This document shows positions 58,911 through 63,428 of a stretch of 64,000 nucleotides of DNA, in pieces (position 1 is the first letter of the stretch; each line of letters opens with the position of its first letter). A program made the position numbers and the translations under genes. This DNA comes from [Synechococcus] sp. NIES-970. GTDB lineage: Bacteria; Cyanobacteriota; Cyanobacteriia; Cyanobacteriales; MRBY01. The stretch lies in the NCBI GenBank assembly GCA_002356215.1, contig AP017959.1:1302001-1366000 (forward strand). The letters are read 5' to 3'. The notes beneath the pieces are model-generated. The model did no database searches, was not told where the DNA came from, and worked only from the letters and a program-made list of their open reading frames with translations.

Positions 58911-60323
58911 CTACGGTAAACTGCCGCGCCATTGAATGACTTGCTCGACTTGATGTTCCCCAAAGCGTCGTTCTGCCGTAATTTCTAAATCCACCACCAT
59001 CCCGGACTGGAGATAATCGCGACTGATGGGTAAATCTCCTAGACGCAGTTGGTATTCTGCACCAAGTTGCCGCACTGCTGTCGGTGGCAGTTGGCCGCTG
59101 TAACGGGTGTCATAGATGTAACCCTCCCGAAATTGGGGCTGGGGGTTGCGGGTGCGGTAGGTGAGGTGAAATTGCGTGTCGAGCCAGTCACTATGGGGGC
59201 CAAGATCCACAATGTTAAAGATAAGATCATCGTCTCTCCTTTGGGGGCCTTGGCGGATTAATTGGGTTGCATCACTGGCCTGCATTGCCCGGTTCACCTG
59301 AATCTGGAAACCGTTGCCCTGGGGTTGCACCCTATAGTCTAGCCAAGCTTCTCCTGATTGCTGCACAGCTAATTGTTGGCGATCGCCCAGTGTAAGACTA
59401 AATTGCGCATCCCGAAAAGCGGTTTGGGGTTGCTCGGCGGCCCAGATTAATTGAATTGGGGCAGTCAACAGTTCAACATACTCTCGATAGGTGTCTGGCA
59501 CCTGGGAACCGCTGGCTAATTGACTCCGTAATCCCATTTGCGATCGCCAAATATTTTTGCTGAGGGTCGTTCCGGAGCGTTGTAAGGCTTCTAGGGAAAT
59601 CGTCGTGCTGGGCTGATCCGTAGGAATTGCCGTCAAATTTTGTACCAGAGTCACCGTCCCAGGGTTGCCGTCTCTACCCCGTGCCCCATCCATTGCATTC
59701 TGTCCATTCCGTCCAGGGGTACAGTAATAGCGCTGTTGGGTACATTGCCGCTCTTGTTTGGGTTTTTCTTCGGGATTACCGCTGGAGACTTCCTCCAAAT
59801 GACAGGTTTCTACAACCCAAGAAGAGTAAGGGCAGCCACAACCTTGGCCACCATAACCGCCCCGTCCTTCGATACCTCCGGTTCCACCACGATTATCCAA
59901 AAAAATCAGGCGGAGGTCCTGGGGCTGTTGGTAAAAAATGGTCACATCGCCACCATTGCCGCCGTTGCCACCGTTACCGCCCCGACCACCATCGCCCCCA
60001 TCAGCTCCTCGAAGGTTATGTTCTGGGCGCTGCCAAAAGCTTGAACACCGGGCCGCTTCGCCATATTCCCCATCTGTACCAGCTTCGCCATCGCCGCCTT
60101 TGAGGTTGAGGGTTTGGGCAGTACCATCGGCAAAAATGATTTGATTTTGGGCCTGGTTGCCGGGGCGACCATCACGACCCGTCCGGCCATCGCGCCCCGT
60201 TTGTCCCCATGAGAAGGCGTTGTTGTAATAGGGATAATGCTGGGAAACCCCAGGGGCGATCGCCCCGACCATAATTACCCCGACCACAACGCTGCCAATT
60301 CCTGCCCAATGGTGCCACTTCAT
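58911..60323 (-). CDS. Exported protein with collagen-like Gly-rich region
   Basis: This 470-aa protein begins with a membrane or signal segment (residues about 5-28, ending near PGVSQHY). It then has two collagen-like Gly-x-y runs, GQTGRDGRTGRDGRPG (about 39-54) and a Gly/Asp/Asn-rich stretch ADGGDGGRGGNGGNGG at about 107-122. Between and after these are several Cys (GCGCPYSSW and QRYYCTPGRNGQNAMDG) and a second Gly-x-y run. The C-terminal half (about 230-470) is beta-rich without a known fold. Surface attachment or binding is a reasonable guess. It is convergent with the Sua5-type gene. Confidence 0.75.
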   Translation of the reverse strand: MKWHHWAGIGSVVVGVIMVGAIAPGVSQHYPYYNNAFSWGQTGRDGRTGRDGRPGNQAQNQIIFADGTAQTLNLKGGDGEAGTDGEYGEAARCSSFWQRPEHNLRGADGGDGGRGGNGGNGGNGGDVTIFYQQPQDLRLIFLDNRGGTGGIEGRGGYGGQGCGCPYSSWVVETCHLEEVSSGNPEEKPKQERQCTQQRYYCTPGRNGQNAMDGARGRDGNPGTVTLVQNLTAIPTDQPSTTISLEALQRSGTTLSKNIWRSQMGLRSQLASGSQVPDTYREYVELLTAPIQLIWAAEQPQTAFRDAQFSLTLGDRQQLAVQQSGEAWLDYRVQPQGNGFQIQVNRAMQASDATQLIRQGPQRRDDDLIFNIVDLGPHSDWLDTQFHLTYRTRNPQPQFREGYIYDTRYSGQLPPTAVRQLGAEYQLRLGDLPISRDYLQSGMVVDLEITAERRFGEHQVEQVIQWRGSLP

Positions 60324-60453
60324 TGCGTTTGACCCCTGATTTTATCCGCCCGGATATCGCTCCGTGACGGGCTAGAAACTTCTCTAGTTTCCAGTGTACT
60401 CAGCAGTCCACTAGGCGATCGCCAAGTTTTGGAAGGATTTTTTCTGCATAACA

Positions 60454-60477
60454 CTCCATATTTAGCTATTTATGGAG
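60454..60477. repeat. Inverted repeat at the left edge of the foreign-looking gene
   Basis: CTCCATA (60454-60460) and TATGGAG (60471-60477) are perfect inverted copies separated by 10 bp, within an AT-rich segment upstream of the gene at 60558. It may be a regulatory site or RNA hairpin. The native collagen-like gene starts on the left and the HIP1-free segment begins just after a HIP1 octamer at 60414-60423. Confidence 0.4.
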
Positions 60478-60557
60478 GAAGTTTCTATATAAAAGTAACA
60501 GAGAAAGCATTGTACGGAAGTCATCCGCATAATAAATGGTTATTTGGCAAGAGATGG

Positions 60558-61718
60558 ATGTCTGAACAAGATCCAAGCACAGAACTAACGAAGCTCGCTT
60601 TCAGTTTGACACATTCGTCAAACATCTATTCAGATGCGTTGGCGAACGTGTCAAAGCAAACTGTAAGCATGGACGCGATTTCCGAGGCGGTTACAGCACA
60701 GTTCGACATTGAACGTAGCCTGCTTCGCTCGACCGGCGCGATGCTCAAACAAATGCGTTTTCTTGAAACATTATCACCAAGTATTCAGTCGATTGTCTCA
60801 GCAAATTCCAGCTTTACACGTATAGCTGAGCGACTCGCTGCAATCGAGAACCCACAAAGCGACGCATTCAGGAAGATCTTTGACGACCACGCACGAATCC
60901 CAAAAGCGGTACAAGATATGGGCCTGTCCGATTCAATCACTGCGGCATTTACACGCATTGATACCACTCGGATGCTGTCTACCTCCCTTGCTGCTCAAAC
61001 AAAACTAGCAAACTTTGACAATCTTACTTTCGGTTGCCTTGCTGGATTGGATGCTGCCTTTAGCCGCGCGATTTCAACGAACCTTGGCAATCTAACTCGC
61101 TCGTATCAATCTCTAATCAATGTTGTAGCGACTCGGGATTCACTGGCTTCATGTCTCCCCTTGATTACGACGTACGCGCCAATCGAATACTATCGTGAAG
61201 TCGAAGTCGTCGAGACGATTACAGTTGATGATGAATCCAATGTCGATGACGAGCCAATCGACAACGCGATTGCCAAAACGTTACCATCCGTGGATGACCT
61301 GCTTGCGGAATTTGACGAACGGTTAGTTGCTCTTCTTCACGGCGCTCGCCAGTCTCTGAATGACGACAATCCTGACCATGCTCGACATGTCACCACGTCT
61401 GTACGCGAACTCTTCACACAAGTTTTACATGCGCTCGCTCCAGATGATGACATTCGTGGTTGGACTTCCAACGATGACTATTTTCACAATAATCACCCTA
61501 CGCGAAGGGCACGATTATTGTTTATTTGCCGACACATTGACTGTGATCCATTGTCACGATTCGTACAGGACGATGTACGTGCTGCCCTATCATTTGTGGA
61601 TTCATTAAATTCAGGTACGCATGTTGTCAAATCACGGCTGTCAAAGATTCAGCTTGCATCGATCGTTGCGCGCATGGAATCGTTGTTAGTATTCCTGTTA
61701 CAGATCCGAAACCACTAG
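60558..61718 (+). CDS. Foreign-looking protein with a pPIWI-associating-nuclease-like C-terminal domain
   Basis: This 386-aa protein has a long helical N-terminal region (1-200) and an acidic linker at 212-235. The C-terminal domain (about 245-386) shows LLHGARQSL, a VTTSVRELFTQVLHALAPDD segment, the basic HPTRRARLLFICRHI, FVQDDV and a final SLNSGTHV. This layout resembles the predicted nuclease domain found with prokaryotic PIWI-like proteins (pP_pnuc families), recalled from memory. Catalytic residues cannot be fixed by eye. No pPIWI gene is near. Codon use differs from neighbours and HIP1 is absent between about 60424 and 61773, so it was probably acquired. The ATG at 60558 follows AAGAGA and is preferred to a longer frame from 60429. 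Confidence 0.65.
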   Translation: MSEQDPSTELTKLAFSLTHSSNIYSDALANVSKQTVSMDAISEAVTAQFDIERSLLRSTGAMLKQMRFLETLSPSIQSIVSANSSFTRIAERLAAIENPQSDAFRKIFDDHARIPKAVQDMGLSDSITAAFTRIDTTRMLSTSLAAQTKLANFDNLTFGCLAGLDAAFSRAISTNLGNLTRSYQSLINVVATRDSLASCLPLITTYAPIEYYREVEVVETITVDDESNVDDEPIDNAIAKTLPSVDDLLAEFDERLVALLHGARQSLNDDNPDHARHVTTSVRELFTQVLHALAPDDDIRGWTSNDDYFHNNHPTRRARLLFICRHIDCDPLSRFVQDDVRAALSFVDSLNSGTHVVKSRLSKIQLASIVARMESLLVFLLQIRNH

Positions 61719-61719
61719 C

Positions 61720-61772
61720 GCCAAATAACAAAATGTCGTTCAGTGGGTTGCGGCGAACGGAAATGTTAAGAT
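61720..61772. repeat. Imperfect inverted repeat with attC-like layout after the foreign gene
   Basis: TAAC (61726-61729) pairs with GTTA (61765-61768), and CGTTC (61737-61741) with GAACG (61755-61759), giving two short stems split by unpaired spacers, as in integron attC sites. The right end reads GTTAAGA, which matches six of seven positions of GTTRRRY; the left AAATAAC matches RYYYAAC less well. The element is short for attC. The placement, directly after an isolated foreign gene, fits a gene cassette. It may also be a chance hairpin or a weak terminator. Confidence 0.35.
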
Positions 61773-61802
61773 TTTGTACGGCGATCGCCACATGAGAAAA
61801 AA

Positions 61803-63428
61803 CTAGGGCGTTGTTGCTGTCCACCAGGCGATTGCATAATCTTGGCTAGCTTGATTGGCTTGCTCAGCATAGACAACCCGAACTTTGTACTTTCCGGTTT
61901 GCGGCACCGGGCAAAAAATATGCTCCACATTATCGACAGGGCTGGTAGAGCGACAAACCGCATCGCCTAAATCATTAGTCTCAGCTGGCAAGAGATAAAG
62001 ATTTAGATCATTCAGGCCGCGGTCCGTAAAAGTTTCCCCCACATCGTATTGGCCATTATTGTTGTTGTCATCTAAATCAACCCAACGATCCCAAGTGAGG
62101 GTCAGGGAGACGAAGGAATCCTGCTGGAGAGGGGTTGCAAGGCGATAGTCCTGAAAGCTACGGACGCTGACTTTGCCATAGTCCCAGCCCAGATTTGGCA
62201 CTGGGGCCGCCGTTGACCATTGTCCGGCAGCAAACTGAGTATAGGCGCGGTAAGCGTTGAGTTGTCCTGTGCCCATTTCGATATCGAGGGGAATATCCGG
62301 ATTGCTGTAGGCATCGCCTTCTAACCAAGTCTTATTACTTTTACTGAGGATAGTGCGGCTCATTTCCAGGTGTTTTCCGTCCCCTGTATCGGCAATTTTC
62401 TCGGCGCTATTGAGCAATATAGCTTTCATCACCTCATGGCGACGGGCATCAAGACTCCATTGATCGGCTTGGGCTTTCAGTTGGCGATCGCCAAATTCCT
62501 GCAATAGAGCGACAGTGCCGACAATATGGGGGGCAGCAAAACTAGTGCCGCTCACTTGATCCATCGTGTTAAAGGATGTGAGTAAATTTAGGCGGCTACC
62601 GGGGGCACTGAGGCTAATCGCACGGCGATCGCCCGCATTAATCTCATTGCGAATCAGGCGGCTACCACTGCCCACAGGTAAAGCACTGAGGTTCGCAAAA
62701 TCAATTTTATTAAAGACATCCCCCTGCAATCGGGTAGTGTAGGCCGTCGTAATACCGTTGTAATGATCCGTGGGAATAGGAATGCCACCACTGCCTTGGT
62801 TTCCGGCCACGACATGGAGCACATCATGAACCCGTGCGGTCCAATCCAAGCACTGGGTTAAGAGGGCATTGCCATCTAAGGTTGGGTTCGGACGGGGATC
62901 ACGACTGAGGGATTCCCCAAAGCTAAAGTTGATCGCCCGCACGTCTCCGCCATTTTGTTGGGTAATGTGCTGGGTTGCTAAGCATTCTTCTGGCTGAGCC
63001 GAATTCATAGTTGAACCGATCGCCGTCGAAAAAAGTCTTGCTTCTGGAGCGACGCCCAAATGGCGCTTATCGCGGCCCACCATCACCCCAGCGACCATGG
63101 CGGCATGGTCATCGACATAATCATCGGAGGTTGCCTGGGTATCGAGGACGAATACCTGGGACAGGTTCAAGTTAGGCCGCCAAGTGGCGCGTTTATCGAG
63201 GCCAAATTGTCCAGGACGGCCGATTTCTACTTGGCCGATCGCAATTTTGCGCCCCAAAAGGTCATAGGGTTCGCTGTGGAGGGTGGTAGCTTGGATGCCA
63301 TTGTCACCGATAGAGGCATTAAAATCTTGGGCGATCGCCCGTTGCATTGGAGGGGCAAATCCTCCAAAAATCGTTAAACTGAGGGTAAATATGCCAAAAA
63401 GCGACTGTTTCTGCCTAAATCTCCCCAT
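61803..63428 (-). CDS. Secreted subtilisin-family (S8) serine protease
   Basis: This 541-aa secreted protein has a signal peptide (core about 8-25, cleavage near AIAQ). His108 in YVDDHAAMVAGV, Asn210 in VVAGNQGSGG and Ser296 in SGTSFAAPHIVG are the catalytic or oxyanion residues. At the place of the catalytic Asp (usual motif DTG) the sequence has Glu68 in AIGQVEIGRPG. The C-terminal part has a DLDDNNNNGQYDVGE loop, calcium-binding in type, and a beta-sandwich-like end. The protease may be slow, specialised or inactive because of the Asp change. It is next to the foreign-looking gene but has HIP1 sites and looks native. Confidence 0.85.
   Translation of the reverse strand: MGRFRQKQSLFGIFTLSLTIFGGFAPPMQRAIAQDFNASIGDNGIQATTLHSEPYDLLGRKIAIGQVEIGRPGQFGLDKRATWRPNLNLSQVFVLDTQATSDDYVDDHAAMVAGVMVGRDKRHLGVAPEARLFSTAIGSTMNSAQPEECLATQHITQQNGGDVRAINFSFGESLSRDPRPNPTLDGNALLTQCLDWTARVHDVLHVVAGNQGSGGIPIPTDHYNGITTAYTTRLQGDVFNKIDFANLSALPVGSGSRLIRNEINAGDRRAISLSAPGSRLNLLTSFNTMDQVSGTSFAAPHIVGTVALLQEFGDRQLKAQADQWSLDARRHEVMKAILLNSAEKIADTGDGKHLEMSRTILSKSNKTWLEGDAYSNPDIPLDIEMGTGQLNAYRAYTQFAAGQWSTAAPVPNLGWDYGKVSVRSFQDYRLATPLQQDSFVSLTLTWDRWVDLDDNNNNGQYDVGETFTDRGLNDLNLYLLPAETNDLGDAVCRSTSPVDNVEHIFCPVPQTGKYKVRVVYAEQANQASQDYAIAWWTATTP

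Follow-up and report, generated by a model that had tools for sequence, protein, structure and literature searches.

A predicted nuclease gene of [Synechococcus] sp. NIES-970 in a probable integron cassette at a solo attI copy

How does a single gene of foreign character come to lie between a collagen-like gene and a protease gene in a cyanobacterial chromosome? The question is raised by a 386-amino-acid open reading frame (ATG at 60558, stop at 61718, + strand) in a stretch of 64,000 bp from [Synechococcus] sp. NIES-970 (contig AP017959.1, positions 1,302,001 to 1,366,000), which we refer to as the window. We propose that the segment very probably represents a gene cassette of an integron, inserted at a solo attI platform, by which we mean a copy of attI without an intact integrase at its side. 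The sequences compared here show a putative attI copy, exact junctions, matching core sites, a homolog in a planctomycete cassette array, an intI gene elsewhere in the genome and further copies of the attI element. One cassette with a promoterless gene would have been inserted by site-specific recombination at the G/TT end of a 107-bp attI copy (the slash marks the junction). The integrase at 531 kb of the same chromosome would have inserted it in trans, or else a local integrase that has since been lost, and the attI region would supply the promoter of the cassette.

Junctions, core sites and relatives of the cassette

The window segment 60405-60560 was used as query against three genomes. 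Its second-best match in its own genome (G000) lies at 531031-531138 on the - strand, with 83% identity over 108 bp and about 70 bp from the start of an integrase profile match. The integrase (G000:C1:531208-532149, 329 codons) reaches 469.9 bits against TIGR02249 (NCBIfam integrase_gron, cut-off 265), and the R, HxxR, H and Y of tyrosine recombinases are readable in its sequence. It is the sole intact copy of the genome and is located 0.83 Mb from the window site. By its position, the element upstream of this intI would be the attI of the integron. The intI-adjacent element ends in CATAATACATAG/TT and the window copy in CATAATAAATGG/TT, and the cassette begins exactly at the G/TT end of the 107-bp window element. 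The 10-bp core pair GTTATTTGGC/GCCAAATAAC brackets the cassette at 60539 and 61720, and each core is unique in the 64 kb. The downstream core GTTAAGA (61765) can be assigned to the native flank, because a sister species (G002) has ATGTTGAAAATTTG at the equivalent place; this sets the inserted cassette at 60540-61765 (1226 bp).

The same limits emerge from the comparison between species. DNA similarity to sister species of the genus extends up to 60540 and is found again from 61756. At the window site (site A), interspecies similarity ends between -1 and +1 from the att end and the cargo differs; at two other sites it ends at +5 (site B) and between -7 and +2 (site C), and it resumes beyond the cargo at orthologous places. 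Site A is empty in three congeners (G003-G005), where the intergenic distance is about 100 bp or slightly more. In G001 and G002 it is occupied by tandem units, between which the 3' end of the protease gene is repeated, and the 13-bp repeat TCCACTAGGCGAT also occurs between cargo units in these sister genomes. The tandem of attI and cargo in G002 (L033:3665-7235) carries a gene for an unknown 313-amino-acid protein, a GFA gene and a ParD/ParE-like pair, the last split by an insertion sequence with IS5-type transposase frames.

Further support comes from a distant relative. A short-peptide-pattern scan of 84,980 species genomes yielded one confirmed homolog, full-length and 82% identical, in a Planctomycetales metagenome-assembled genome (locus L002). 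DNA similarity between the window and L002 covers 60539-61718 only. The homolog sits in an array with four attC-like repeats, whose cassettes start with a GTT core and carry its reverse complement at their own end (GTTACAAC/GTTGTAAC, GTTCAAA/TTTGAAC); the homolog's cassette has GTTATTTGGC (3855) and GCCAAATAAC (5052), the same pair as the window. The bottom strands of three of the four repeats fold far better than shuffled sequences (z = -4.19, -2.83 and -3.75; the fourth, 0.41), and the value of -4.19 belongs to the attC of the cassette homologous to ours. Identity between the two genes by codon position is 86, 93 and 44%. Silent sites are thus near saturation and the protein is conserved, which argues for an old shared pool and for purifying selection. 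Judged from these identities, the cyanobacterium and the planctomycete both drew on a shared cassette pool. A recent direct transfer from planctomycete to cyanobacterium was rejected in view of the third-position identity of 44%. According to PMC3607928, the integrase of a marine Synechococcus groups with planctomycete integrases, and this grouping suits the cassette exchange found here. At the edge of the planctomycete array lies a group II intron with reverse transcriptase (L002:25-1853). The association of group II introns with integron arrays is known.

The gene had already drawn attention in an earlier note on this stretch, which described it as standing alone between the two neighbours, with foreign codon use and of foreign origin. 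Our reading of the open reading frames agrees on its isolation, and its codon score is the lowest of the 38 window genes of at least 200 amino acids (z = -3.87), which makes it the most atypical of them. Comparison with relatives, also proposed in the note, supports the foreign origin: the gene is found in none of five congeners and in one of 30 genomes, its own counted. The absence of the HIP1 octamer, which the note had read as a sign of foreignness, is real, as no site lies between 60422 and 61781 (1366 bp from start to start). We rejected this gap as evidence for foreign origin, since among the 126 sites of the window, with a mean spacing of 509 bp, it ranks 7th of 125 gaps, as expected by chance. 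The limits that the note had drawn (60424-61773) match the solo attI plus one cassette nearly exactly. A phage or prophage origin was also rejected: phage records and PHROGs gave no match, and no match in viral contigs could be confirmed.

Several points weigh against an integron cassette at an attI copy. The hairpin of the window attC is no more stable than shuffled sequences (z = 0.16), and for this reason the site may be degenerate or decayed. Position and the G/TT junction are the grounds for calling the element an attI. The 107-bp element is partly palindromic, as seen from matches on the opposite strand, which is unusual for an attI. Neither intI nor a remnant of it was found at the window locus within 1.5 kb upstream. 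A promoter scan of the window attI copy found no consensus sigma-70 promoter, so that expression of the cassette from the attI region, which we consider probable, is an assumption. Finally, intI was not found in the planctomycete metagenome-assembled genome. Two frames in genome G399 were considered as a planctomycete integrase and rejected, as they look like XerC/XerD recombinases.

Table 1. Features of the cassette locus in the window
Feature	Position	Strand	Remark
Solo attI copy, 107 bp	60435..60541	+	83% identical to the sequence upstream of intI; ends G/TT (60539/60540); 94.9 bits with model R1
Inserted cassette, 1226 bp	60540..61765	+	From TT (60540) to G of the 3' core site; similarity to sister genomes is lost from the att end to 61756-61763
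Cassette 5' core (R' half), GTTATTTGGC	60539..60548	+	Once in window; identical in planctomycete cassette L002:3855
Cassette gene, 386 amino acids	60558..61718	+	Helical N-terminal region (about 1-240) and C-terminal pP_pnuc_1 (254-379)
Cassette R'' core, GCCAAATAAC	61720..61729	+	Exact reverse complement of the 5' core; once in window; identical in L002:5052
Short attC-like site	61720..61771	+	R'' AAATAAC, L'' GTCGTTC, L' GAACGGA, R' GTTAAGA
Left 13-bp direct repeat, TCCACTAGGCGAT	60407..60419	+	Lies beside the platform; similar to the protease gene at its 3' end
Right 13-bp direct repeat, TCCACCAGGCGAT	61820..61832	+	Inside the 3' end of the protease gene
Glycine-rich/collagen-like neighbour gene	58911-60323	-	Read from sequence
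Subtilase-like protease neighbour gene	61803-63428	-	Read from sequence

Dispersed attI copies and the integrase

With a sequence model of the element, attI copies were sought in six genomes of the genus. The genome of the window has copies at 531 kb (with intI), 1362 kb (the window), 2147, 746 and 2575 kb and weaker ones at 504 and 535 kb; at least four are without an intact integrase. G001 has copies at 1003, 698 and 2035 kb and weaker ones, G002 at 1010, 1012, 679 and 1884 kb, and G005 a single one beside a broken intI (contig C22). The scan found no copy in G004, which has the empty site. Matches in other genera were weak (39 bits or less) and were not used. The cargo after G/TT differs among the copies. 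Behind one of them stands a complete Gabija pair (GajA 3e-176, GajB 5e-253); other cargo includes an HNH restriction enzyme with a C5 methylase, a NACHT-HEAT protein, ParDE-like toxin-antitoxin, GFA, GNAT, glyoxalase, SLFN_AlbA_2, YaaC-like and unknown proteins.

Some of these loci deserve a closer description. The Gabija genes (G000:C1:2147137-2151106; L057:5137-9106) lie directly behind their solo attI, preceded by a probable small empty cassette of about 100 bp. The NACHT-HEAT protein has 970 amino acids and is encoded in G005 (L109:3474-6383) behind the copy with the broken integrase. A weaker att-like site by Uma2-like and ileS-like genes is found in three species with three different cargo genes (G000:C1:504744, G001:C1:2035730 and G002:C1:1884338).

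A cyanobacterium of another family (G190) has 230 bp at the attI side of its intI copied at two other places, one copy being 99% identical and accompanied by a 22-residue intI stub, the other 80% identical and without intI. Both diverge shortly after the common ATAGTT end. As far as the sequences tell, G190 is an independent replicate of the solo-attI pattern. Beside the recombination point, both genera have an inverted repeat of the form TTATACGGAAA-N-TTTCCGTATAAT, which would explain the opposite-strand matches of the attI model. The two copies of G190 (G190:C1:1169485-1169714 and 3427202-3427383), neither with an intact integrase, each contain several TTATACGGAAAAATTCCATATAA-type inverted repeats. 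An intact or long intI over the cut-off was present in 23 of 373 sampled cyanobacteria; integrons in Cyanobacteria are already known (PMC2426708; PMC9668308).

How are these copies supplied with cassettes? The solo platform of the window is probably served in trans by one integrase. The wider proposal, which we put forward tentatively and at a little under an even chance, is that cyanobacterial integrons are multi-platform systems, in which a single integrase acts in trans on several dispersed attI copies that have no integrase beside them. Each platform would then hold one or a few cassettes directly behind attI, and together they would form a swappable distributed set, mostly of defence and conflict genes. 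In contrast to one long array with silent distal cassettes, every cargo would be near an attI. As main rival for the mechanism we keep the view that the copies are decayed complete integrons, each of which once had its own intI and lost it after capture, with no service in trans now; this is a plausible, if rather doubtful, account. In its favor, four copies (those at 2147, 746 and 535 kb and the one on C22 of G005) have an intI remnant upstream, and the sister species G001 and G002 keep filled attI copies with no intI over the cut-off. The window copy, however, has no such remnant and is only about 110 bp from the native collagen-like gene, the 3427-kb copy of G190 also lacks one, and the genome of the window does possess an intact intI.

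Two further explanations dispense with an attI platform. In the first, which is very improbable, the 107 bp would be a small mobile repeat of palindromic build or a regulatory element, located by chance upstream of foreign genes, and ordinary recombination at HIP1 sites or direct repeats would have brought in the gene. The partly palindromic element would agree with this, as would the 13-bp direct repeats that flank the platform, repeats of a kind that separate the tandem units in G002. However, the 10-bp core pair in common with an integron array of another phylum would be left unexplained, and so would the G/TT junctions and the fact that in two genera the element adjoins intI or what remains of it. 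The second, in which no attI takes part and the cassette entered a non-classical attG site of the genome, is hardly credible. Such sites can take up cassettes (Loot et al. 2024, as cited in PMC12901181) and an isolated single cassette fits, but the insertion point lies where a 107-bp stretch ends that shares 83% identity with the attI beside intI, and this sequence precedes different cargo at several loci.

Relation to known integron arrangements

An integron is normally described with a single attI beside its integrase (PMC3607928). The proposed cassette at a solo attI resembles a chromosomal integron in the intact IntI, the attI directly upstream of intI, the insertion at G/TT and the matching R''/R' cores. 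It differs in the distance of 0.83 Mb between cassette and intI and in the entry site, one of the several attI copies with no intact integrase beside them; the intI adjoining attI that characterizes a complete integron was not found in up to 1.5 kb upstream of the window site. With the CALIN, an attC cluster without intI, it has in common a cassette without adjacent integrase that is possibly recombined in trans, and according to PMC9668308, which describes the CALIN, excision or capture in trans is possible for cassettes in clusters that lack an integrase. Unlike a CALIN, the window site keeps an attI copy as entry point, with a single cassette and a weak attC. Insertion at attG (Loot et al. 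2024, cited in PMC12901181 and PMC12444791) likewise places a cassette away from the integron, whereas the target here is a homologous attI that has taken up different cassettes at orthologous positions. Defence-type cargo is shared with the integron anti-phage cassettes (Darracq, Getz, Kieffer 2025, cited in PMC12444791); our case differs in the cyanobacterial host, the dispersed sites and the Gabija and pP_pnuc_1 cargo.

A full-text search of the integron literature, with subscription papers mostly outside its coverage, found no description of solo attI copies in chromosomes. The nearest cases are the delta-attI cassettes known from clinical integrons (PMC12901181) and insertion at attG. Orphan cassettes are usually explained by lost integrases or by attG sites, and reused solo attI copies would be a third arrangement. 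Such reuse would explain the precise entry of isolated defence genes into streamlined genomes, and unannotated integron cargo could be found by searching for attI copies rather than for attC arrays or integrases. The attI link joins a cyanobacterial pP_pnuc_1 gene with a planctomycete cassette and locates Gabija behind an attI copy.

The pP_pnuc_1 protein and its possible role

Residues 254-379 of the protein match Pfam PF18165 (pP_pnuc_1; E = 1.1e-29, 103.1 bits, gathering cut-off 26.3). This profile check confirms the nuclease-type C-terminal domain suggested in the earlier note; "predicted nuclease" is Pfam's name for the family and not an assayed activity. The note had also seen no pPIWI, helicase or methylase partner nearby, and this is supported here: no Ago or pPIWI gene adjoins the gene, the neighbours being the collagen-like and the subtilase-like protease genes. 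The PADLOC profile Aga_Nuclease (PDLC02413) is matched in part, at positions 13-123 of 267, and not over its full length, and the second domain, pP_pnuc_2, was not found in the protein. Since pP_pnuc_2 and any Ago partner are missing, we place the protein outside the Ago/pPIWI-associated systems. With their nuclease, composed of pP_pnuc_1 and pP_pnuc_2, it shares a pP_pnuc_1 with invariant R, E, R and H; in place of pP_pnuc_2 and an Ago partner it has a long helical N-terminal region, as do plasmid-borne solo pP_pnuc_1 forms, whereas the canonical Ago-associated relative P0007 has both domains. Over 12 homologs, an L, a G, an R-E pair, an R and an H are invariant in the domain.

The predicted structures are all helical and of low confidence, with a predicted local distance difference test score (pLDDT) of 39 for the full-length protein and 49 for the domain, and two aligned sequences were used. 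A fold search of the PDB with the domain model gave no match at E <= 0.001, a result treated as uninformative; a HEPN protein was matched only at E 0.9, the domain being predicted all-helical and having the R, E, R and H that are invariant among homologs. Relatives with solved structure, sought by sequence, were not found. A PD-(D/E)XK fold was considered, and as no strand is predicted in the domain this idea is lowered, though at such model confidence merely lowered. The all-helical models weakly speak against a PD-(D/E)XK nuclease and for a HEPN-like one.

The likeliest role, already suggested in the earlier note and held by us at about an even chance, would be that of a stand-alone antiphage effector, because of the associations of the family and the other defence cargo at attI copies. 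The N-terminal region would sense infection or mediate assembly, and the C-terminal domain with its invariant R, E, R and H would attack nucleic acid. The low pLDDT values, which leave no usable structure model of the protein, count against this role, and we know of no defence phenotype for pP_pnuc_1 alone. A toxin-antitoxin-like or regulatory role, for example an addiction function that stabilises the array, seems unlikely. In its favor, toxin-antitoxin genes and genes of unknown function abound in cassette arrays, ParDE-like genes occur at the G001 site, and the domain is predicted to be helical with R/H motifs as in HEPN toxins. However, the pP_pnuc_1 domain is part of Ago-associated nucleases (PADLOC Aga_Nuclease) and on plasmids is found beside restriction-modification, reverse transcriptase and ABC-3C genes, and an antitoxin gene is not present in the cassette.

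The pP_pnuc_1 domain family is rare. Among 386 cyanobacterial genomes it exceeds the cut-off in the window genome only, and in a planctomycete sample it is found in four of 343 genomes, the query's own counted. Solo pP_pnuc_1 proteins are also encoded on plasmids of Alphaproteobacteria, Leptospira and Leptolyngbya (L025-L031), often next to restriction-modification, reverse transcriptase, ABC-3C or conjugation genes.
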